Virus record (IMG/VR): IMGVR_UViG_3300037963_003073
Span: 13,047-38,885 of that record
Source of the DNA: a virus
Reading direction: 5' to 3' (one strand)
Length of the DNA stretch: 25,839 nucleotides
Shown: piece by piece, positions 1 through 24,508 of the stretch
Numbering within the stretch: the first letter of the stretch is position 1
Layout of the letters: every line of letters begins with the position of its first letter
Notes under the pieces: model-generated
Seen by the model: only the letters and a program-made list of their open reading frames with translations
What the model was told of the DNA's origin: nothing
Databases searched by the model: none
Position numbers and translations under genes: made by a program

Positions 1-1056
1 GTAGGTAAAGATGGTGTGGTATTAATGGAAGAGTCACCAACTGAAGAAACATACGTCGAAGTAGTTGACGGCGTGCAGGTAGATTCAGGACTCACATCTC
101 CACATTTTGTTACTGATAAGGACAAGCAAGTAGCAGAGCTTGATAACCCATTAGTATTAATAGTATCTTCAGAAATACCTAATATAAGAAGAATACAAAA
201 AATATTAGAGCATGTAATAAAAAATAAACGCTCTTTATTAATAGTAGCTCCAGTTGATCAACAAGTTAAGGCTGCTCTTCTTATGAACAAGGTAAAAGGT
301 AATATAAAGGTAAACATAATTGATTTACCAGGCTTTGGTCCTACTAAAGAAGATACTGTAGCAGACCTTGCGTTTTTAGTTGGTGCTAAAGTAATAAACG
401 AGCAGTTAGGTGATGATCTTGATTTAATAGACATTGATTGCTTAGGTGAGGCATACACATCGATTACTGATAGTAAAAACACTGTTTTAACTATAGATAC
501 TCCAGAAGAAGATATGGATGAAAGAATAGATAGTGTTAAGAAAACTATAGATAAATGGGAGAAAAATCCGTTTATACAAAAGAAACATAGAGAAAGATTA
601 GCAATGTTATCAGGTAGCGTAGGTGTAGTAAAAGTTGGTGCTAACTCTAAAGTTGAGCTTAAAGAAAAGAAGGATAGAGTAGAAGATGCTATTTATGCTA
701 CAAAAGCGGCTTTAAAAGAAGGTATAGTACCAGGTGGTGGTGTAGCTTTGTTAAATGCCTCACAAAGAATTATAGCTAAAAACGTTGGGGAAAACATATT
801 ACTAAAAGCTATTATGGCTCCTTTTTATACCGTACTTGATAATGCTGGTATAACAATGATGGATGGATATGAGGATCATGAAGGTTACGGTATTGATGTA
901 ATAACTGGTGAAAGAGCTACTATGATATCAGCTGGTATTATAGATCCTGTACTTGTAACTAAGTCAGCTCTTAAAAACGCAGTAAGTGTAGTTACAACTA
1001 TTATATCTGCAGATTGTGTAATTTCAAACATGAGATTAAATGAAAGCAATAAATAG
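1..1056 (+). CDS. groEL: Phage chaperonin GroEL (Hsp60), 5'-truncated by window edge
   Basis: ATP-driven folding chamber subunit. The reading frame is open from base 1 and its first codons (VGKDG) match the GroEL segment just before the apical domain, so the gene starts upstream and a GTG at 16 is not the real start. The 351 residues seen cover the apical domain, the descending intermediate domain and the C-terminal equatorial domain. The motif RVEDAIYATKAA carries the Asp equivalent to E. coli D398 (codon 685), followed by PGGGVAL (733-741), and IIDP holds the D495 equivalent (codon 943). The apical surface is changed relative to E. coli: by eye Y199 reads Leu, Y203 His, L234 Gln and L259 Lys, while F204 and L237 are kept. 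The C-terminal Gly-Gly-Met tail of bacterial GroEL is absent. It overlaps groES by 17 bases, so the two are probably co-translated. The family assignment is secure; the substrate is unknown. Confidence 0.96.
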   Translation, partial: VGKDGVVLMEESPTEETYVEVVDGVQVDSGLTSPHFVTDKDKQVAELDNPLVLIVSSEIPNIRRIQKILEHVIKNKRSLLIVAPVDQQVKAALLMNKVKGNIKVNIIDLPGFGPTKEDTVADLAFLVGAKVINEQLGDDLDLIDIDCLGEAYTSITDSKNTVLTIDTPEEDMDERIDSVKKTIDKWEKNPFIQKKHRERLAMLSGSVGVVKVGANSKVELKEKKDRVEDAIYATKAALKEGIVPGGGVALLNASQRIIAKNVGENILLKAIMAPFYTVLDNAGITMMDGYEDHEGYGIDVITGERATMISAGIIDPVLVTKSALKNAVSVVTTIISADCVISNMRLNESNK

Positions 1057-1297
1057 ATATATAATAGTAGATAAAATAAAGACAGAACCTAAAAAGGTTG
1101 CTGGTCTTATAATGACGGATGATACAGATGTAGATAACCGTTATATAAAAGCAAAAATAATATCGTGTGGCAATTTAGTTGAAGGATTAAAAGATGGAGA
1201 CACGATATATTACGATAAACACGCTGGACACGACATATCATGGAAAGATACTCTTTATAGAGTTATTCGTGATGGTGACGTTGTTCTAGTAGATTAA
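1040..1297 (+). CDS. groES: Phage co-chaperonin GroES-like (Cpn10), roof-less
   Basis: This 85-aa protein would be the lid of the GroEL chamber. It has the Cpn10 order: an N-terminal strand (RYIIVDKI), a mobile loop with the hydrophobic tripeptide Leu23-Ile24-Met25 after Ala-Gly (IVL in E. coli GroES), a central strand around KAKIISCGN, the GDTIYY strand and a C-terminal strand ending DVVLVD. It is shorter than E. coli GroES (97 aa). The segment between the central strand and GDTIYY is short, so the roof beta-hairpin appears to be missing, as is known for T4 gp31. Its start lies inside the end of groEL, in a different frame, which implies translational coupling; this order (groEL before groES) is the reverse of the usual bacterial operon. 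Confidence 0.88.
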   Translation: MKAINRYIIVDKIKTEPKKVAGLIMTDDTDVDNRYIKAKIISCGNLVEGLKDGDTIYYDKHAGHDISWKDTLYRVIRDGDVVLVD

Positions 1298-11774: not shown

Positions 11775-13241
11775 ATGGCAATTACTGCAGGAGGAAATTT
11801 AAACAGTGTTGCAACTTCTACTCAGATGACTTTAGTTAATAACTATATTGACTTTACAGCATCTGGTACAGCAGGTTGGGCACAACAATACCTACCTGAT
11901 CTAATGGAGAAAGAAGCTGAAGTGTTCGGTAACAGAACTATTTCTGGTTTCTTATCACAAGTTGGAGCAGAAGAAGGTATGACATCAGACCAAGTAATCT
12001 GGTCAGAACAAGGAAGATTACACTTAAGTTACAATGGTACATTAGATGTATCTGCAAATCAAATTACTATCGGTACTGATTTAGATGGTAATACTGGAGG
12101 TGCTGGTCACGGTATTAGAGTTGGTGATACTATATTAGTATCTAGCTCTCGTGATGGTGCAACTACACAGTGTTACGTTAAAACTAGAACAGCTGGTGCT
12201 GCTACTATTGTAGCTTTACCTTATAAAGCAGCTCTTATGTCTGATGCTGCTGCTGGATCTCTTACTGATGGTTCTTGTACTGTAATGGTATATGGATCTG
12301 AATTTGCGAAAGGTACAGCTGGTCAAACTTCATCTAATGAGCCTGTTCACAAAAGTTTCACTAACAAACCAATTATATTAAAAGATTTTTATCAAATCAA
12401 TGGATCTGATACTTCTCAAATTGGTTGGGTTGAAATTTCAGGTGAAGACGGTCAATCAGGTTACTTATGGTACTTAAAAGCAGAAGGTGATACTAGATCT
12501 CGTTTCGCTGATTATATTGAAATGTCAATGGTTGAGTCTGTTAAAGCATTAGCGGCTTCTACTATTCACGATGATTCAGTATATGATGGAGGTTCTGGTG
12601 TTATAGCTAATACTGATCCTGGTACTGAAGGTTTATTTGCTGCTATCGAAGATAGAGGTAATATGACTTCAGGTGTTACAGGTGTTAACGCTGCTACTGA
12701 TTTAGCTGAATTTGATGCTATCTTAGCTGAGTTTGATAAGCAAGGTGCTATTGAAGAAAACATGATGTTTGTAAATAGAGCTACTAGTTTAGCGATAGAT
12801 GACATGTTAGCTTCTATGAATTCTTATGGAGCTGGTGGTACTTCTTACGGAGTATTTGACAACTCTGAAGATATGGCTCTTAACTTAGGTTTCTCTGGTT
12901 TCAGAAGAGGTTCTTACGACTTCTACAAGTCTGACTGGAAATACTTAAACGACAAAGCTACAAGAGGTGGCGCTGTTGAGGCTTCTAGCGCTATTAGAGG
13001 TGTTATTATACCAGCAGGTGTATCTTCAGTTTATGATCAACAATTAGGAAAGAACCTTAAACGTCCTTTCTTACACGTTAGATATAGAGAAGGTCAAACA
13101 GAAAGCAGAAGAATGAAGACATGGATTACTGGTTCAGTTGGAGGAAACGTTACAACTGATATAGACTCTATGAACGTACATTACTTATCTGAAAGATGTT
13201 TAGTAGTACAAGGTGCTAACAATTTCATGTTAATGAACTAA
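11775..13241 (+). CDS. Major capsid protein (probably HK97-fold)
   Basis: Main shell protein, 488 aa. It is next to scaffold and portal, has the cleanest A-rich leader (TTAAAACAATTTAAAA before ATG) and is followed by a strong terminator. Features: an N-arm (1-60), a strand-rich stretch (about 80-185) with GHGIRVGDTILVSSSRDG and TVMVYGSEFAKGT that looks like an inserted surface domain, a helical spine region (GDTRSRFADYIEMSMVESVKALA, about 237-259), an A-domain-like segment with VNRATSLAIDDML, and a C-terminal block with HVRYREGQTESRRMK and GNVTTDIDSMNVHYLSERC. Few Lys are present compared with the neighbours. HK97 fold is established for tailed-phage capsids; no maturation cleavage site is evident. 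Confidence 0.88.
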   Translation: MAITAGGNLNSVATSTQMTLVNNYIDFTASGTAGWAQQYLPDLMEKEAEVFGNRTISGFLSQVGAEEGMTSDQVIWSEQGRLHLSYNGTLDVSANQITIGTDLDGNTGGAGHGIRVGDTILVSSSRDGATTQCYVKTRTAGAATIVALPYKAALMSDAAAGSLTDGSCTVMVYGSEFAKGTAGQTSSNEPVHKSFTNKPIILKDFYQINGSDTSQIGWVEISGEDGQSGYLWYLKAEGDTRSRFADYIEMSMVESVKALAASTIHDDSVYDGGSGVIANTDPGTEGLFAAIEDRGNMTSGVTGVNAATDLAEFDAILAEFDKQGAIEENMMFVNRATSLAIDDMLASMNSYGAGGTSYGVFDNSEDMALNLGFSGFRRGSYDFYKSDWKYLNDKATRGGAVEASSAIRGVIIPAGVSSVYDQQLGKNLKRPFLHVRYREGQTESRRMKTWITGSVGGNVTTDIDSMNVHYLSERCLVVQGANNFMLMN

Positions 13242-15976: not shown

Positions 15977-18900
15977 ATGCCAGAATTTAAGCATAATTTT
16001 ACCGGTGGTAAGATGAATAAAGACGTTAATCAACGTCTTGTTCCAAAAGGAGAATATAGAAACGCAATGAACATACAGGTGTCAACTTCAGAAGAGTCTG
16101 ACGTTGGTACTGTTCAAAATATATTGGGTAATTCTCTTGTGCAAAATTTAAACATAAATAATAATTCTAAATGTATTGGTAGTGTTGCTGATGAAAAAAA
16201 TGATGCTCTTTATTGGTTTGTTTCAGAGCCGCCTGCTATTTTTAGTTTTAACACAAGTTATTCAAGAGATATAATTTTTGAATTAAAAAACGGTCAAGTA
16301 AAACATGTTGTTGTTGATATTAAAAATTTAAGTGTACCTATTTACAGTTTACAAGCCCCTGCATCTGGTAATTTATTGATAAATGATCAACAAAATTTTA
16401 ACAATTTAAACGTTGGAGACACGTTTCAGATTTATCAATTTATAAATGGTGTTGGTCAAAATATAAGCGGTAACGATACATACACAATATTAAGTACGGA
16501 TCCTGGAAATTTAACTGTTAATATAGGTGATTACACAGAAACATCTTGGGCAAATATTCAAACGCAAGGTCCTGGCGAACTTCAAATAGTTTTAACTTCT
16601 GAAAACAATGTACTAAACTTTCAAGGTAATATAATAACAGGAATTAACATTATAGATGATATGTTATTCTGGACAGATAATTATTCTGAGCCTAAAAAAA
16701 TAAACATACCAAGAAGTATAGAGGGTACAAATCCAAACGGCCAAATACAAACACGTTTAATAAACGAAGAAAGAAACATAGATTATAACGATGCTATTAA
16801 TCTTCAAGAAAAACACGTAACAGTTATACGTAAAGGCCCAAATAAAGCTCCAACTATAAGTAGCGTAACTAGTTTTAGAGATGGAGATATATTTGGAAAC
16901 ATTACTAATTCAGTAGGTATATTCAGTTCTAACGGAACTCAACCCCTACCAGTTGGTCATGAAAAGTGGATTGCTATTAACGGTGACTTAAACTATGAAC
17001 CTGGAGACATTTTAAGATTTTCTAGTAATCCTCAGCAACTTGCGCCAGAATACTTTGAGATAAGAGCTACTGTTTTACAAATAGAACAAGGTCCTTATAG
17101 TATTGGTGCTTTTAATTCTAGTTCAGGTCAAACAGCAGTAAAGATTGAAATAGAATCAATGTCAGCCGACGGTTTAACAACTTCTATTAATCCTTTGATA
17201 AGTGATTGGAGTGTTGGTTTAGAAGAGATTGGCAAAACTTTGTTTGAGCAAAAGCTACCAAGATTTTCTACTAGATATAGATATATAGATGGAGAATATT
17301 CTAACATAGGTCCTTTTACTGAAGTAGTTTTTATACCTGGTAATTTTAGATACCATCCTAGAGAAGCTTACAATACTGGTATGGTAAATAGATTAAGGGA
17401 TTTAACAATACAAGATTTTATTCCTAACGATATACCAGAAGATGTAGTTCAAGTAGATATTCTTTATAAAAACGAAGTAAGTCCTAATATTTATGTTGTA
17501 GAAACTATTTCAAGGCAAGATACTTTAGACTCTAACAATGAAAATGCTTGGACAAGACAAGGTTCTTCTGCAGGGTTAAGAGGTTCTTATAAAATTTCTT
17601 CAGAAAATATATATGCTACATTACCTGAAAATCAACTTTTAAGATCTTGGGATAATGTGCCTAGAAAAGCGCTAGCTCAAGAAGTAACAGGAAATAGAAT
17701 AGTATATGGAAATTATACGCAGAACTATAATATAAAAGAAGAAAATTCTAACGAAGTTATAAAGCCAAGTATAAGAACAGTTATTGGTGGTAGAGTAAAT
17801 GAAGATGATAGTAACATAGGTAAAAAGTCTATAAAATCAATGAGAACCTATGATATTGGACTTGTTTGGGGAGATAAGTACGGTAGAGAAACTCCTATAA
17901 TAACACCTAGTTCTGGTTCAACAATAGTTCCTAAAGCACGCTCTACAAGAGCTAACATGCTTAATGTTGAGGTTAGTGATAAACATCCAGATTGGGCTGA
18001 TTATTACAAGATATTTGTAAAAGAAACTTCAAATGAGTATTACAATTTAGCTATGGATAGGCTTTATGACGCTGAAGATGGTAACGTTTGGATTTCTTTT
18101 CCTTCTATAGATAGAAATAAAGTAGATGAAGATACTTATATAATATTAAAAAAAGGTATAGACACTGAAGATGCTATTGTAGAAGAAGCAAGATACAAAA
18201 TAGTAGCTATAGAAAATGAAGCGCCAGAATATATAAAGACATCTTACGATTTATTAGCTCAATCAGTTGATGATGCCGGTGCTGTAATTCATTCTGCTGA
18301 ACTATATGGTGGAAATGATCCTACTGCAGCTGCAACTTTAGGTGATTCAGGTTTACCAAGTAGCGGTCAAAGTGCTCCTATACCAGGCGCTAAAAGCTTT
18401 AGTATAGATATAGAAAGATGGACTAGTGAGTGGTTTGCTGGAAACGCTGCTACTAACACACCATCTAACATGGGTCTTCCAAGATTAGATAAGTTATTTA
18501 CTGATTTAAAGTTAGGCGCAGAAGAAATGTGGGTTGATTTTATTAGAGCTGATGATGATGACTTAGCAAACCCAGTTCATGGTACTAGTGGTAGATATAG
18601 AATAACACAATTATTGTTAGATGATCCTGATCAAGATTTTAGTAATTCAACTCACTACGAAATAAAAATACATAGACCAATAGCTATAGAAGATGGATTT
18701 ATAACTGAAGATTTAAATGTAGGAAATGATTTTGTAAGAGTTCGTTTTTGGAAAAAATCAATTGAAAACTTACCACAATTTGATGGTAGATTTTTTGTTA
18801 AAATACTTAGAGATAATATTGTTGATGAAAAGCTAGTTAACTATGTTACAACCGTAAGAAATTGGACAATAACCTCTTCAACCACATTTCATAGAATTAA

Positions 18901-21900
18901 AGACAGTTCTTTAAATCAAAGTGATCCATTGTCTTTTTATCAACTTTACCAACCTCTTAATAGCTATCCAACTTCACCAACATCAACAGGTAATAATCCA
19001 CCTATAAACAACAGTAGCTCAACAAGATCAGCTAGTGATTGGGCTACACTTTTAAAGTTTGGCGGTACTCAATTAACTTCTAAATGGTTTATTGATGGAG
19101 CTTCATTTGCTAGTGTTATGCCAGGGACAAGTAGAGATATTAATGCTATTAACGATACTCAAAATATAGGTAATAGCGTTATAGAAACTTGTGATACTAC
19201 TAGTACTATTAATTATACTTTTAATGGTACTGGAAATTGCGTAGAAGCAGCGCCAACTACTGGTTCAGAAAATACTGGTAATGGTTTGTCAAGAGCTGTT
19301 TTAGGTATGAAAGGTGTTCATGATTCAGGTGGTAATCATTATTTTGATTTTGCTTATTCTGTTATAGGTCCAAACACAAGTGGTAGTCAAACAAATTTTA
19401 CTGTAGGTGAAGATGATGGTAATAATCCTACTAACTCTTTCACAGATCAAGAAGAACAAATTGTCAGTAGACTCGGTGTTAATGAGCGTTTTAAAATCGA
19501 GGGAGATCCTACTATTTATAGAATACTTGGCGTTCAAAAAAGACGTTTATTTAATTTTAGAGGAGTACCAACTACGCCTGCTCCTGAAAGGGAGAATTGT
19601 ACTGTTCCTTGTCCAACTTACAACTCTAACTGTGATTTTCAAGGGTGTAACGATGGGCAGTATGATGAGTGTTGTGATTGTCCAAATCAATTTGTAACAT
19701 ACAACGATTATTTTGTTGCTAGTAATTATTACTCGCAAGAAGATCAAATGCACGCTAATTACAATAGAAGAAAGACTTATAGAATACAATACGAAGTTGA
19801 TCAGCTTTCTTTACCAAATCCAGATATTACAGTTGCTCAAAACGGATGGTCAGAAACTCTTCCAGACAATCCTGCTTTTGCTAGTGTTTACGCTTCTGGT
19901 GTAGATTCTTCAAGTAGTACTACAGCAACAATACAGTTTGTTTCTCAGTTTGATTCTGACTTACCAAATCTAATAAGTAATAATCCAGCTATATTTGAGA
20001 CAGAACCTAAAGAAGATGTAGATTTAGATATATACTACGAGGCTACTGGAAGTATACCTACAAGAATAAACGTAAACAATAGAGAGTTATATATACCTAT
20101 TGGAGCTACATTAGAATTTGCTCAAGAATTACAAGCGGCAATACCAAGTGGTATTTTTGTTACGCAATGGCAAGGTTTAAACTCAGTTATTCTATCTACT
20201 TCTTTAAGCTCTTTAGATTTTCAAGCAATTGAGCAAATGTACCCTGAGATTAAGTTCGTTAGAGACGATGGCAGTTATTTAGAAGTAACAATTACTGGCT
20301 CGTTATCTTCTGGTAGCGTTGTTTATGGATTAACATTTAACCCATTAAATTTTGGTAAAATTGGATTAAATTGGTTTAACTGTTGGTCTTTTAATAATGG
20401 TGTTGAGTCTAATAGAATAGGAGATACTTATAATAAACCATACATAGTAAATGGTGTTAAAGCGTCTAGCGTTATAATAGGTGATTACGAAGAAGAAGAA
20501 AGAACAAATGGTTTAATATACTCTGGTATATATAATCCAAATAGCAATACAAACAATTTAAACCAATTTATAACAGCTGAAAAAATAACAAAAGATATTA
20601 ATCCAACTTACGGTAGTATTCAAAAACTATATTCTAGATCTACTGCTGATGGTGATTTAATTACTCTTTGTGAAGATAGAGTTTTAAAAATACTAGCAAA
20701 TAAAGACGCTGTATTTAACGCTGATGGTAACACACAGTTAACAGCTACAAATAAAGTTTTAGGTCAAGCTATACCTTATGCTGGTGATTATGGTATATCT
20801 AAAAATCCAGAATCTTTTGCTGCTGAATCTTATAGAGCTTACTTTTCTGATAAAGTTAGAGGAACTATATTGAGATTATCAAAGGACGGTTTAACACCAA
20901 TATCATTTTTTGGTATGAAAGATTGGTTTAGAGATAATCTAAAACTTGGTGATAATATTATTGGTAGTTACGATGATAGAAAAGACGAATACAATGTTAC
21001 TATAAAAGGTGGTGTTATTGATAAAACAGTTACATTTAAAGAAGATGTAAAAGGTTGGGTTAGTTTTAAATCGTTTACACCAGAAAACGCTATTAGTTGT
21101 GCTAATGAATATTATACGTTTAAAGATGGTTCAGCTTGGAAACACCACGATGAAACCGCTAACAGAAATACTTTTTATAGCGAAAACCTTGTACCATCAA
21201 CTTTAGAGGTTGTATTTAATGAAATACCTGGTAGTGTTAAATCTTTTAAAACAATAAACTACGAAGGCTCTCAAGCTAAAGTTACTTCAAAAGATGAAAA
21301 TGGTGTAACGCTAGTAGATGGTGAGTACTTTAATTTAACAGAAGAAAAAGGTTGGTATGTTCAAGATATTGTTACTAACTTAGAACAAGGCGGTATAACT
21401 GAATTTATTAAAAAAGAAGGCAAATGGTTTGGTTATGTTACGGGTAATGACGTTACTTATACGGTTGACGGTGATATATCTGGAAATTACGATACAGAAG
21501 ATTTTAGTATACAAGGTATAGGCGTTGTATCTAGCGTAGTTAGTAGCATTGTTTATGGTTGTACAGATCCAACCATGTACAATTATAATGACTCAGCAAC
21601 AAATGATGATGGTAGTTGCCTTCCTCATATTTATGGTTGTACAGATAGTACTTCTGACAATTATAATAGCTCTGCTACTACAGATGATGGTAGTTGTGTT
21701 TGGTACGGATGTACGCAAGGACCTCTTGCTGACTGGACTACTGAATTATCTGGAACGTCAACATTAAACTATAATCCTATTGCTACTGTGGATGATGGAA
21801 GTTGTATTCCAGCTATATATGGCTGTACTATTTCTGGTAACTTTAATTACGATCCTTTAGCAAACTTTGGTTCTAGTTACTTGAGCGATGGAACTCTTTG

Positions 21901-24508
21901 TGGCTACGTTAACTGTATGTGTATTCCATTTATATATGGTTGTACAGATCCAAATGCAAGTAATTACTTCTCACCTAACAGTCCTGACGATGCTATAAAC
22001 ACAGATGATGGATCTTGTCTTTATTCTGGATGTACTGATCCTTTAGCAGAAAACTATAGCTTTATGGGTTCTACTGTTGATAGTAATAACGGTAGTTTTT
22101 CTTATCTAAACGGTACTGCTGTTGATGATGGGTCTTGTACTTATATCGGTGGATGTATGGATTCAACTGCATGTAATTATGATGCTACAGCAACTCAAGA
22201 CGATGGGTCTTGCTACTATTGTGGTGACACAAACGCTGTTAATTATGACGCACCATTTTCTGATGCTAGCTGTACTTCTAATTGCGTTTACTGTGAACCA
22301 CCAACAAGTCTTATGGTGTTATCAAATACTACATCTGATGCAAATTTAAACAATGGAACAGTTACTTTACAATGGCCAGTTTCACCAACGGCTAGCGAAT
22401 ATTATATTTATGCTAACAACTCTCCAATTGCTGGGCCAATATTACCTTCTGGAAATAATATAGAAACGTATACTGTTACAGGTTTAGCTACAGGTACTTA
22501 CAACTTTATGATATTTAACCTTTGCGTTTCAACACAAGGTGCTACTTTAATTAGCTATGACATAACAGGTCCAATATCTGGTCCAACCGCTACATCAACA
22601 ATAACATCAACACCAATACCTGGTTGTACAGATAATACTGGCGTTAACAATAATATAGGAGCTTGGGGTGCTTGTAATTATAATCCGGCAGCTACAGTAG
22701 ATGATGGAAGTTGTGTTTACGATATATGTATTGGTTGTACAGATCCTTCTTATTTAGAATACTGTGGAGATTGTTGGGATCCTGTTAATTTAGTTGCTGT
22801 AGCTAGTGGAGGAAACCCTTGGGTTGCTGATGATGGAAGTTGCTCAACTATTGTTGTAAATGGTTGTACTGATTCAAACGCGTTTAACTACGATCCAAAC
22901 GCAAATGTTGATGATGGTAGTTGTATAGCAGTAGTTTTAGGCTGTACAGACTCTACGTTAAATTACAATGGAACTTACGCTGCGTCAAACTACGATCCTT
23001 TAGCCAACACAGATGACGGAAGTTGTTTACCATACAACTGCCCATTTGGACCTAATGTAATCTTAACAGGTAATGATAGTATTCAGGTTAGCTTTGGTAT
23101 TGGTAACACGCCGTTTAGCGGTAATATTAACCCTGGTGGTTTTCCAAACGATTTTACTTTAGGTTTAATAGTATCTGACAACAACAATAACGCTATATTT
23201 GCAGACGCTAATTTAGGTGGTTTTAGCACTATTAATAATACTATATTTAGTAATATAAATCCATCTTTAGTTAGTTCTTGGACTCAAGGGCAAACTTCTA
23301 TAACTGTAATATTTACTGTTAATTCTAACAATGGGACTTGCTCTATTTCTCAAACTGAAACTTTCAGTGTTGGGTGTTTAGATACAAACGCTGATAACAG
23401 TGGTACTTATGATCTTGAAGATAATACTCAGTGTATTTACACTGGTTGTATGGACGCCACAATGAATCCTGACGGAAATCAGTTTGCCGCGGACAATTAC
23501 GATCCAAACGCTAACGTTCCTTGTAATGATGGTACTGGAGATAATAGTTGCTGTGTTTATACTGGTACTCCATCAACCTATTTAACACCTACAGTAACGT
23601 CTAGTTCATCGCCTATTCGTTATACAATACTACAGCTTACAGTTGATTATCTAAACACGCCTTATAGTGATGTTCAAACTAACGTTGTGTCTCTTGGTAC
23701 TGGAACTAATACGCAGGTTTATTCTGGAACAATTTATACTAGTTGGAACCAAACAAACATGAGTAATCCTAGTGGTACAGAAAATTTACCTTCTCCTCTA
23801 TTTCAAGGTGACTGGACGCCGTATATAAATAACAACGGTGCTTATGGTCTTAATAGTGGTGATTTAACAGTTACAATTAGTAGCACTTGGACAGGCACTA
23901 TAGATAATGCTTCTCAAAACAACACGATTACAACAAACGTTCAAGAGACTCACGTTTATACTGCTGGTTGTAAAAACGGTGATAGTAGTCACATAAATTA
24001 CGATCCAAACTTAGATTTTCATATAGACAATAGTTGTGTTGATAGTAATCCAGGTTGTATGTCCCCTACAGCAACTAATTATAATTCTGCGTTTAACCAA
24101 GATTGTACTGCTACTGGAAGTACTAATGCTACAGACTGTTGCTGTTATACTTGCGACACACCTACGTTTGAAACAAGCTTTTTAGCTGTTAATGCTTCGG
24201 CAACTAACTCTAGTGGTAATGTTTATGCTACTCAAATCACGTTTAGCTTTGCAGCAGTTTCTACAGCCGCCTCTTATACTATCACTGTAACGGATGCTAG
24301 TGGAATCTCCTTAACCATCAATAACTTTGTACCTACCTCTATAAGCAATGGTGTTGCTAGCTACGTTTATTATAACAATGGTACAAATTGGTTCTTAGAT
24401 GAAAGCTCTTACACTTTTGAAATAATAGCTAACTGTGAAAATGGAGATGGAAACAGCTGTGGTAGTTCTACGTCAGATACTGAAAGTAACTTTACAATAA
24501 ATATTTAA
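15977..24508 (+). CDS. Giant tail hub/nozzle protein fused to Cys-Asp repeat adhesin region
   Basis: At 2843 aa this is the largest gene. N-terminal part (1-1850): FTGGKMNKDVNQRLVPKGEY (8-27) and VGTVQNILGN (43-52), motifs I associate with P22 gp10/T7 gp12-type nozzle or stabilisation proteins; beta-propeller-like strands include DEKNDALYWF (residues 72-81) and DDMLFWTDNYSEPKKINI (about 227-244). A Cys cluster (about 1208-1240) lies in the middle, and a conserved block with LGQAIPYAGDYGISKNPESFAAESYRAYFSD and GMKDWF begins near 1594. The C-terminal part (1860-2843) holds about 16 GCTD...DDGSC-like repeats broken by FN3/Ig-like segments at about 2107-2210, 2351-2465, 2528-2663 and 2729-2843. 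The likely role is a tail nozzle extended by a cell-surface-binding arm. No signal peptide or T9SS sorting domain is seen. Confidence 0.85.
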   Translation: MPEFKHNFTGGKMNKDVNQRLVPKGEYRNAMNIQVSTSEESDVGTVQNILGNSLVQNLNINNNSKCIGSVADEKNDALYWFVSEPPAIFSFNTSYSRDIIFELKNGQVKHVVVDIKNLSVPIYSLQAPASGNLLINDQQNFNNLNVGDTFQIYQFINGVGQNISGNDTYTILSTDPGNLTVNIGDYTETSWANIQTQGPGELQIVLTSENNVLNFQGNIITGINIIDDMLFWTDNYSEPKKINIPRSIEGTNPNGQIQTRLINEERNIDYNDAINLQEKHVTVIRKGPNKAPTISSVTSFRDGDIFGNITNSVGIFSSNGTQPLPVGHEKWIAINGDLNYEPGDILRFSSNPQQLAPEYFEIRATVLQIEQGPYSIGAFNSSSGQTAVKIEIESMSADGLTTSINPLISDWSVGLEEIGKTLFEQKLPRFSTRYRYIDGEYSNIGPFTEVVFIPGNFRYHPREAYNTGMVNRLRDLTIQDFIPNDIPEDVVQVDILYKNEVSPNIYVVETISRQDTLDSNNENAWTRQGSSAGLRGSYKISSENIYATLPENQLLRSWDNVPRKALAQEVTGNRIVYGNYTQNYNIKEENSNEVIKPSIRTVIGGRVNEDDSNIGKKSIKSMRTYDIGLVWGDKYGRETPIITPSSGSTIVPKARSTRANMLNVEVSDKHPDWADYYKIFVKETSNEYYNLAMDRLYDAEDGNVWISFPSIDRNKVDEDTYIILKKGIDTEDAIVEEARYKIVAIENEAPEYIKTSYDLLAQSVDDAGAVIHSAELYGGNDPTAAATLGDSGLPSSGQSAPIPGAKSFSIDIERWTSEWFAGNAATNTPSNMGLPRLDKLFTDLKLGAEEMWVDFIRADDDDLANPVHGTSGRYRITQLLLDDPDQDFSNSTHYEIKIHRPIAIEDGFITEDLNVGNDFVRVRFWKKSIENLPQFDGRFFVKILRDNIVDEKLVNYVTTVRNWTITSSTTFHRIKDSSLNQSDPLSFYQLYQPLNSYPTSPTSTGNNPPINNSSSTRSASDWATLLKFGGTQLTSKWFIDGASFASVMPGTSRDINAINDTQNIGNSVIETCDTTSTINYTFNGTGNCVEAAPTTGSENTGNGLSRAVLGMKGVHDSGGNHYFDFAYSVIGPNTSGSQTNFTVGEDDGNNPTNSFTDQEEQIVSRLGVNERFKIEGDPTIYRILGVQKRRLFNFRGVPTTPAPERENCTVPCPTYNSNCDFQGCNDGQYDECCDCPNQFVTYNDYFVASNYYSQEDQMHANYNRRKTYRIQYEVDQLSLPNPDITVAQNGWSETLPDNPAFASVYASGVDSSSSTTATIQFVSQFDSDLPNLISNNPAIFETEPKEDVDLDIYYEATGSIPTRINVNNRELYIPIGATLEFAQELQAAIPSGIFVTQWQGLNSVILSTSLSSLDFQAIEQMYPEIKFVRDDGSYLEVTITGSLSSGSVVYGLTFNPLNFGKIGLNWFNCWSFNNGVESNRIGDTYNKPYIVNGVKASSVIIGDYEEEERTNGLIYSGIYNPNSNTNNLNQFITAEKITKDINPTYGSIQKLYSRSTADGDLITLCEDRVLKILANKDAVFNADGNTQLTATNKVLGQAIPYAGDYGISKNPESFAAESYRAYFSDKVRGTILRLSKDGLTPISFFGMKDWFRDNLKLGDNIIGSYDDRKDEYNVTIKGGVIDKTVTFKEDVKGWVSFKSFTPENAISCANEYYTFKDGSAWKHHDETANRNTFYSENLVPSTLEVVFNEIPGSVKSFKTINYEGSQAKVTSKDENGVTLVDGEYFNLTEEKGWYVQDIVTNLEQGGITEFIKKEGKWFGYVTGNDVTYTVDGDISGNYDTEDFSIQGIGVVSSVVSSIVYGCTDPTMYNYNDSATNDDGSCLPHIYGCTDSTSDNYNSSATTDDGSCVWYGCTQGPLADWTTELSGTSTLNYNPIATVDDGSCIPAIYGCTISGNFNYDPLANFGSSYLSDGTLCGYVNCMCIPFIYGCTDPNASNYFSPNSPDDAINTDDGSCLYSGCTDPLAENYSFMGSTVDSNNGSFSYLNGTAVDDGSCTYIGGCMDSTACNYDATATQDDGSCYYCGDTNAVNYDAPFSDASCTSNCVYCEPPTSLMVLSNTTSDANLNNGTVTLQWPVSPTASEYYIYANNSPIAGPILPSGNNIETYTVTGLATGTYNFMIFNLCVSTQGATLISYDITGPISGPTATSTITSTPIPGCTDNTGVNNNIGAWGACNYNPAATVDDGSCVYDICIGCTDPSYLEYCGDCWDPVNLVAVASGGNPWVADDGSCSTIVVNGCTDSNAFNYDPNANVDDGSCIAVVLGCTDSTLNYNGTYAASNYDPLANTDDGSCLPYNCPFGPNVILTGNDSIQVSFGIGNTPFSGNINPGGFPNDFTLGLIVSDNNNNAIFADANLGGFSTINNTIFSNINPSLVSSWTQGQTSITVIFTVNSNNGTCSISQTETFSVGCLDTNADNSGTYDLEDNTQCIYTGCMDATMNPDGNQFAADNYDPNANVPCNDGTGDNSCCVYTGTPSTYLTPTVTSSSSPIRYTILQLTVDYLNTPYSDVQTNVVSLGTGTNTQVYSGTIYTSWNQTNMSNPSGTENLPSPLFQGDWTPYINNNGAYGLNSGDLTVTISSTWTGTIDNASQNNTITTNVQETHVYTAGCKNGDSSHINYDPNLDFHIDNSCVDSNPGCMSPTATNYNSAFNQDCTATGSTNATDCCCYTCDTPTFETSFLAVNASATNSSGNVYATQITFSFAAVSTAASYTITVTDASGISLTINNFVPTSISNGVASYVYYNNGTNWFLDESSYTFEIIANCENGDGNSCGSSTSDTESNFTINI
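21554..24160 (+). repeat. Cys-Asp repeat array (GCTD...NY...DDGSC), about 16 units
   Basis: Degenerate protein repeats of about 21-38 residues with the consensus G-C-T-D-x(2)-A-x-N-Y-[ND]-x(2)-A-x(2)-D-D-G-S-C. Ten units end in exact DDGSC; others are degenerate (one lost the final motif, several have Cys-Cys ends). At DNA level the recurring piece is GATGATGG followed by AGTTG or similar. Units run 1860-2105, 2216-2350, 2466-2526 and 2664-2728 by residue, with globular segments between. The acidic pairs suggest Ca2+ binding as in thrombospondin type 3-like repeats (inference), and each unit's two Cys may form a disulfide. Confidence 0.88.

Follow-up and report, generated by a model that had tools for sequence, protein, structure and literature searches.

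A phage-encoded GroEL/GroES pair with a basic apical collar, a roofless lid and a predicted single-ring GroEL

For a phage that encodes both a GroEL and a GroES, the question is what kind of machine the two genes make and which proteins it serves. Here, this question was addressed for a stretch of viral DNA of 25,839 nucleotides (the window), which corresponds to bases 13047 to 38885 of the 38,885-base IMG/VR virus record IMGVR_UViG_3300037963_003073. The window opens inside groEL. An earlier note, written from the sequence alone, had advised obtaining the upstream contig, and there the start of the gene was located at record base 12567 (G000:C1:12567). Because 10 Ns immediately precede window base 1, the window starts at a scaffold gap and not at a gene boundary. 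The two chaperonin genes, which overlap by 17 bases, are as follows:

1 to 1056, plus strand: 3' two thirds of groEL (351 aa in the window); PF00118 over its cut-off and PHROG "chaperonin groEL" at E=4.1e-79.
1040 to 1297, plus strand: groES, the co-chaperonin lid (85 aa); PF00166 at 32.3 bits against a cut-off of 21.1.

The pair was compared with three sets of relatives. The family sample consisted of the best 80 of 191 IMG/VR relatives; after removal of L083, which has a fused pair, 79 GroELs and 78 GroES proteins were used, L069 having no groES on its contig. The nearest relative among these 80, L004, is 97% identical and has an unbroken 522-aa groEL. The cellular sample was the best 80 of 594, from which L099, L147, and L164 were dropped owing to stops or unreadable letters in the stated frame (L147 was still used in the tree), leaving 77 GroELs; 78 cellular GroES proteins were available, as L137 and L139 yielded none. 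Among related phage clades, the MW202828-like sample was the best 80 of 442, with groES found at 65 of the 80 loci, and the elemo-like sample comprised 14 of 14, with groES found at 13 and one protein (L347) cut before the ring-ring sites. The 79 family and 77 cellular GroELs were aligned with those of eight other phages, and E. coli numbering (Met=1) is used throughout.

By sequence family and by modelled three-domain fold, the window GroEL is a group I chaperonin. The model of the L004 GroEL (522 aa, pLDDT 81) matched GroEL-ADP (4ki8_A) with a Z score of 40.5 (rmsd 4.3, 506 aligned) and the single-ring mitochondrial Hsp60 (9shk_A) with a Z score of 37.8 (rmsd 4.4, 507 aligned). The ATPase residues, which the earlier note had judged intact, are indeed kept, and the D52, D87, D398, and D495 equivalents are identical in all 79 family GroELs:

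685 to 687, plus strand: catalytic Asp (E. coli D398), intact by alignment.
943 to 945, plus strand: nucleotide-site Asp (E. coli D495), intact by alignment.

Identity to the best 80 of 594 cellular GroELs did not exceed 43%. The tree placed the family in one group with phi38:1, MW202828, elemo, and Panino (100/98), separate from every cellular sequence included, on a long stem branch of 2.34 changes per column. An origin from a host groEL was not read from this tree, because the phage branches are very long and their joins unsafe. Position 33, which lies upstream of the window, is A in 79/79 family proteins, Y in 14/14 elemo-like proteins, and P in 77/77 cellular proteins. Nine residues precede the A3 equivalent in family proteins and two precede A3 in E. 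coli; since the cellular sequences were trimmed to where the match begins, this length is not comparable with that of cells, and any role of the extended N terminus would be a guess.

The order of the two genes had been described in the earlier note as the reverse of bacterial groESL, and this is true of the whole lineage. Among the best 80 of 191 relatives, groES lies directly 3' of groEL at 79/79 loci with groES on the contig, with overlaps of 17 bases (44 loci), 14 bases (30 loci), or 1 base (4 loci) and one fused pair, whereas in 76 of 78 cellular pairs groES comes immediately before groEL. The two other cellular pairs, with groES downstream, belong to planctomycetes (L154 and L171). The groEL-then-groES order is also found in the elemovirus-like and MW202828-like clades. 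In the fused pair (L083:2203-3936), groEL continues in frame into groES from residue 25, so that the first half of the mobile loop is lost; this is either a deletion or an assembly chimera.

The constancy of the pair was assessed at 80 terminase loci, 59 of which were too short to tell; 16 of the other 21 had groEL and/or groES. For two of the five pair-less loci (L203 and L241), the full records have the pair further upstream. The records of the remaining three (L209, L249, and L251) gave no groEL/groES match, and these are fragments of 13 to 19 kb, so no true absence of the pair is shown; among the 80 terminase loci, no record was long enough to show the site and yet lacked the pair. Compared with the window, the distance from the pair to the downstream terminase is much greater in L241 (record G003) and L203 (record G001), and in L203, genes for 508-aa and 1299-aa proteins lie between holin and terminase. 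That groEL and groES are decaying passengers without a folding role is scarcely credible: the frames are open and the ATP sites intact in 79/79 family GroELs, none of the terminase records long enough to show the site was found to lack the pair, and no support for decay was found, the one rearranged pair among 80 relatives being that of L083.

Downstream of the pair, a holin-like protein, a terminase, a portal, an acidic 392-aa protein, a 488-aa protein, and a 2843-aa protein are encoded in one gene run. By both the terminase and the 488-aa protein, the named relatives are phages of Flavobacterium, Cellulophaga, and Maribacter, together with MW202828 (Manatee Spring); a Tenacibaculum phage is related by the terminase only. 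Given the hosts of these phages, a flavobacterial host is likely, and the lineage, which is marine and widespread, probably infects Flavobacteriia.

The client-binding face of GroEL was then compared with that of cells. Fenton et al. 1994 reportedly described eight apical residues (199, 203, 204, 234, 237, 259, 263, and 264) as forming the pocket. In the window, the corresponding segments and the basic surroundings discussed below are as follows:

85 to 108, plus strand: segment under the client groove, SGLTSPHF, by alignment (R197S, Y199L, L200T, and Y203H; F204 kept).
181 to 231, plus strand: helix H (E. coli 229-245), with L234Q, E232R, and G244K; net charge +5 against a cellular mean of +0.45.
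250 to 297, plus strand: helix I and the preceding acidic turn (E. coli 252-268), by alignment, with E252P, D253 deleted, E257Q, L259K, V263L, and V264M; net charge +2 against a cellular mean of -2.2.
565 to 582, plus strand: second acidic cluster (E. coli 359-363), by alignment, with D359N, D361I, and E363K.

The same eight residues are included in a list of GroEL functional residues in the available part of PMC2741606. Four of the changes (Y199 to Leu, Y203 to His, L234 to Gln, and L259 to Lys) had been noted earlier by eye, and all four were confirmed in the GroEL alignment. Y203H, L234Q, and L259K are fixed in 79/79 family GroELs, and position 199 is L in 76, M in 2, and V in 1; cellular GroELs retain Y199, Y203, L234, and L259 in 75, 75, 63, and 75 of 77. 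Of the remaining positions, F204 is retained in 78/79 and L237 in 79/79, while V263L occurs in 73/79 and V264M in 79/79. Thus, five of the eight groove positions (199, 204, 237, 263, and 264) stay hydrophobic and three (203, 234, and 259) become H, Q, and K.

The changed residues are real, but rewiring specific to the pocket was tested against the rest of the apical domain and rejected. At the 90% conservation level, 41/80 cell-conserved apical positions are changed, compared with 24/94 equatorial and 8/35 intermediate ones, and the pocket (4/6) is not enriched over the apical domain (hypergeometric P=0.36). The result at the 80% level was similar (6/8 versus 56/105, hypergeometric P=0.18); against the whole protein, P was 0.11 at the 90% level and 0.05 at the 80% level. 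Within the family, conservation averages 98% in the pocket and 91% in the apical domain, and the pocket chemistry mapped across these 79 phage GroELs is near-invariant. Judged from the alignment, remodelling affected the entire apical domain, and strong constraint now acts on the new pocket.

The most distinctive apical feature is a basic collar formed by helices H and I. Their net charge is +6.41 in the family (range 5 to 7, n=79) and -1.78 in cells (range -3 to 1, n=77). In related clades, it is +1.10 (MW202828-like, range 1 to 2, n=80) and +0.14 (elemo-like, range -1 to 1, n=14), and in the eight other phage GroELs, -1.0. Only 0.26% of pairs of non-overlapping 17-residue segments shift as far as H and I or further, and the largest single 17-residue shift (+6.8) lies at 351-367. 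The charge of the whole apical domain was also considered as a candidate difference and set aside; it is about unchanged (-6.0 in the family versus -5.1 in cells) because other parts became more acidic. Two acidic clusters are altered. Residues 252/253/255 become P/deleted/D or E, and 359/361/363 become N/I or L/K; we take these to be the chamber-wall charge clusters of Tang et al. 2006. Chamber contacts of GroEL given in the available part of PMC10723157 are E255, K226, and Y360.

Two further ideas about charge were tried and rejected. Total mobile-loop charge gave no sign of complementarity between lid and groove, the loop being not more acidic in the family (-1.95) than in cells (-2.64); its C-flank is more acidic in the family (-3.0 versus -0.2), and its N-flank is similar in E. 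coli (+2) and the family (+2.2). A conserved D83-K327 charge swap is not claimed either: many family members carry R or K at 83 and D at 327, yet the protein of the window itself has S at 327.

The lid had been suspected in the earlier note of having lost its roof hairpin, as T4 gp31 has, and this is what was found. The relevant segments, together with the end of groEL, are as follows:

1030 to 1056, plus strand: groEL C terminus without a GGM tail, from the sequence.
1085 to 1129, plus strand: groES mobile loop (residues 16-30), in which GLIM (1103 to 1114) replaces GIVL.
1169 to 1201, plus strand: 11-residue turn (G44-D54) replacing the 20-residue roof hairpin stretch, by alignment and model.

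In the AlphaFold2 model of the lid (pLDDT 81), no strand lies between residues 43 and 55, and residues 16-30 have a pLDDT under 50, as for a mobile loop. The model matched Cpn10 (1wnr_C) best, at a Z score of 10.4 (rmsd 1.9, 73 aligned), and E. coli GroES (1aon_O, Z 8.9) and gp31 (1g31_A, Z 8.7, rmsd 3.7, 83 aligned) were tied. By family and modelled fold, the window protein is a Cpn10 lid, roofless like the gp31 type. The E. coli stretch G44-D63 (20 residues) is replaced by 11 residues in 78/78 family lids, in 65/65 MW202828-like lids, and in 13/13 elemo-like lids found; T4 gp31 has 13. The Y71 equivalent, a tyrosine in the ceiling of the lid and a client contact according to the available part of PMC10723157, is H in 78/78 family lids and Y, W, or F in 78/78 cellular lids. 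At least 6 G or M among the last 16 residues of GroEL occur in 0/79 family proteins versus 70/77 cellular ones. In E. coli, this C-terminal tail divides the cavities, as stated in the same part of PMC10723157.

Roof loss was rejected as a hallmark of phages. Among the 78 cellular lids, the stretch measures 20 residues in 48, 19 in 10, 21 in 1, 15 in 14, 13 in 2, and 11 in 3. The 15-residue lids are from Bacteroidota by title, except for L096, a record titled Rokubacteria with a GroEL that the tree places among Flavobacteriaceae; a shortened roof thus exists in the likely host groups. The 11- and 13-residue lids are from Campylobacterota. Since short lids occur in both kinds of cells, lid shortening is neither phage-specific nor unique. 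Three of these cellular lids (L100, L119, and L145; Sulfurovum, Helicobacter, and Campylobacter) have a turn as short as that of the phage.

A lid of this type could serve a different ring. T4 gp31 works with host GroEL, as noted in the T4 record, and the window lid retains a GroES-like tripeptide, LIM (69/78 family lids; other hydrophobic triplets in 9/78). Nevertheless, it is quite improbable that host GroEL is a further or even the main partner of the phage lid, or that phage subunits join host rings and so redirect the host chaperonin: the phage's own GroEL adjoins the lid in 79/79 visible family loci, and distances among the lids correlate with those among the GroELs (Mantel r=0.49, 0/999 permutations as high), as expected for partners.

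The ring-ring segments of the window GroEL are as follows:

760 to 795, plus strand: seven-residue deletion (E. coli 429-435; window position approximate), removing D435, the partner of K105 across the rings.
826 to 879, plus strand: right-hand ring-ring segment (E. coli R452 to V464), by alignment, with R452Y, E461T, S463M, V464D, and 465-469 deleted; it includes the 9-residue stretch that varies most in the family (L004 456-464).

The left pair, K105-D435, is lost in 79/79 family GroELs, D435 being deleted in all of them, and the right pair, R452-E461, is lost in 78/79, although in the region of E. coli 425-470 the exact position of the gaps is uncertain for individual residues. Both inter-ring bridges are therefore lost in 78/79 family GroELs versus 0/77 cellular ones, of which 74 keep both. 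The positions concerned also vary. Family conservation at 105, 109, 452, 461, 463, and 464 is 0.36, compared with 0.90 at equatorial positions matched for conservation in cells, and none of 20,000 draws was as low. The two most variable 9-residue segments in the family are ring-ring segments (L004 456-464, 0.35; 111-119, 0.59), and L004 425-433 (0.65) ranks fourth. In the MW202828-like clade, both bridges are lost in 61/80, one is kept in 15, and both are kept in 4; an acidic residue at 435 is mostly present (E in 81%), and ring-ring conservation is 0.43 versus 0.80 at matched positions (0/5000 draws as low). The elemo-like clade has lost both bridges in 13/13 full-length proteins. Bridge loss is no general phage rule: among the eight other phage GroELs, both bridges persist in one and a single bridge in three. 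The R197-E386 bridge is also gone, with S or V at 197 and K at 386 in the family; in the available part of PMC2741606, it is the bridge of the T state.

Absence of both bridges has been linked to single-ring mitochondrial Hsp60 (PMC5575113, in part), and single-ring GroEL has been made with R452A/E461A/S463A/V464A (same source), sites that PMC2741606, in its available part, names as well. We read the pattern as a loss of selection for ring stacking. With both salt bridges gone and the ring-ring segments free to vary, we predict a GroEL that functions as one heptameric ring. Bridge loss in the sequence may still be compatible with a double ring that other contacts keep together; by analogy, mitochondrial Hsp60-Hsp10 forms double-ring footballs too (PMC7174398, in part).

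An ordinary, host-like double-ring GroEL/GroES, in which the apical and interface changes are long-branch drift that left the mechanism unchanged, would account for part of these observations. The fold is the same at a Z score of about 40, the stem branch is long, and 41/80 conserved apical positions are changed with no enrichment in the pocket. Drift does not explain why the changed pocket is near-invariant in the family (98%) or why ring-ring positions vary (0.36) when equatorial positions equally conserved in cells do not (0.90). In addition, the family's collar charge is not reached in the 77 cellular GroELs or in the 8, 80, and 14 other phage GroELs. We consider drift within an ordinary double ring unlikely, if still worth weighing. 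The reading that we prefer, and hold to be probable, is that the locus encodes a complete functional group I pair with a basic groove and a roomier chamber, working as a single ring with its own lid.

The clients of such a pair were sought among the phage's own proteins. Net charges are -25 for the 392-aa protein, -22 for the 488-aa protein, -21 for the portal, and -179 for the 2843-aa protein, and the terminase (+11), a 426-aa protein encoded upstream (+9), and a 146-aa protein (+10) are basic. With acidic portal, 392-aa, 488-aa, and 2843-aa proteins and a basic terminase and two others, a basic rim that favours acidic clients is plausible and unproven.

The earlier note had gone further and suggested a chamber tuned to the 488-aa capsid protein or to the 2843-aa hub, and neither suggestion fared well. 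The 488-aa protein matches "virion structural protein". In its favour as the one tuned client, as gp23 is for gp31 in T4, the gene pair precedes the structural genes, the roofless lid resembles gp31, and the protein is acidic, with a mass of 52 kDa. Against this, GroEL distances across the window and seven contigs correlate with those of terminase (r=0.85), portal (0.88), the 392-aa protein (0.79), and GroES (0.81), but poorly with those of the 488-aa protein (0.32; 8 genomes only, and the distances of this protein disagree with those of all the others too). The roofless lid is also common to clades whose 488-aa homologue is only 40 to 48% identical. Tuning to this single protein is thus improbable in our view. 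The 2843-aa protein, at 310 kDa, lies far above the size limit of the GroE cage, roughly 60 kDa, and should not fit, so it could be helped only without encapsulation.

Several observations concern these two proteins themselves. The 488-aa protein (window 11775 to 13241) is out of step with terminase and portal as well as GroEL (r about 0.3, 8 genomes), as if it had been swapped between lineages. The 2843-aa protein (window 15977 to 24508) matches the crAss muzzle C-terminal domain weakly, below threshold (26.7 bits against a cut-off of 27; residues 1729-1821), and beyond this match carries many copies of a GCTDPxxxNYNxxAxxDDGSC repeat; it resembles a tail-tip or muzzle protein more than a hub. 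When the 488-aa, portal, and 2843-aa proteins were compared with solved structures, no match was found at E 0.1.

Phage chaperonins are already known. According to Marine et al. 2017 (ISME J), GroEL/GroES of virioplankton, phage-encoded group I chaperonins like the present one, are reportedly common in marine viruses and far diverged from the bacterial protein, and their gene order goes with phylogeny; to our knowledge, that work holds no analysis of ring-ring contacts, collar charge, or roof. The annotated Flavobacterium elemoviruses (MT497075; L089) and the podovirus MW202828 (L090), each taken together with its IMG/VR relatives, share with the window the groEL-then-groES order, the 11-residue lid turn, mostly lost bridges, and homologous terminase and 488-aa proteins. 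Their GroELs are 36 to 37% identical to that of L004 and differ in the pocket (Y199 mostly kept; G or L at 203, L or E at 234, M or V at 259) and in the collar, which is about neutral (+0.1 and +1.1, against +6.4 in the window family). T4 gp31 is roofless like the window lid, at 18% sequence identity, but it works with host GroEL, on the major capsid protein, whereas the window phage has a GroEL of its own. Bacterial GroEL/GroES (E. coli; Flavobacteriaceae) has the same fold and ATP site and differs in gene order, roof, tail, collar, and ring interface.

Single-ring states, as predicted for the window GroEL, are known for the chaperonins of Pseudomonas phages EL (gp146) and OBP (gp246) and for human mitochondrial Hsp60/Hsp10 (PMC5934643, PMC7185714, and PMC5575113, each in part). 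The EL and OBP proteins, described as phage chaperonins in the available part of PMC5934643, work without a known co-chaperonin, whereas the window phage has a lid gene; mitochondrial Hsp60, unlike the window GroEL, is a cellular protein. The phage AR9 has a further chaperonin, known by name. The groEL-first order and the roofless lid were thus already to be seen in annotated elemoviruses, and what the present comparison of sequences adds is evidence, from three clades, that ring contacts have been released, together with the strongly basic collar seen in the window lineage.

In the mechanism that we propose, the pair, encoded ahead of the head and packaging genes, would fold phage proteins, and perhaps host proteins, during infection. 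GroEL would bind and hydrolyze ATP in the usual way, judging from its residues. The groove would take up clients and the GLIM loop through the retained F204, L237, and large aliphatic residues at 263/264, with Q234, K259, and the basic residues of helices H and I added, and would favour acidic chains, including several of the phage's virion-side proteins. With neither roof hairpin nor tyrosine ring, the lid would close over a chamber that also lacks GGM tails; the space inside should then be larger, and its wall should carry less acidic charge. With a single heptameric ring and its own lid predicted, lid release would be independent of a second ring, unlike in E. coli. The debate over whether group I chaperonins can cycle as lidded single rings has drawn on mitochondrial Hsp60 and on engineered E. 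coli mutants (PMC5575113 and PMC5934643, in part).

More tentatively, and with less confidence than in the reading above, a whole marine phage lineage may run a single-ring, cis-only GroEL with a private roofless lid and a basic collar, exchanging no parts with the host GroE. If so, it would be a natural answer to how a single-ring GroEL/ES escapes the lid-locked state of the engineered E. coli mutant. The family is large and natural, and with ring contacts seemingly unselected and ATP site and lid intact, it offers many sequences for testing. The basic collar makes a clear and easily measured prediction on client choice. In general, a chaperonin of their own may free these phages from the limits of host folding capacity.
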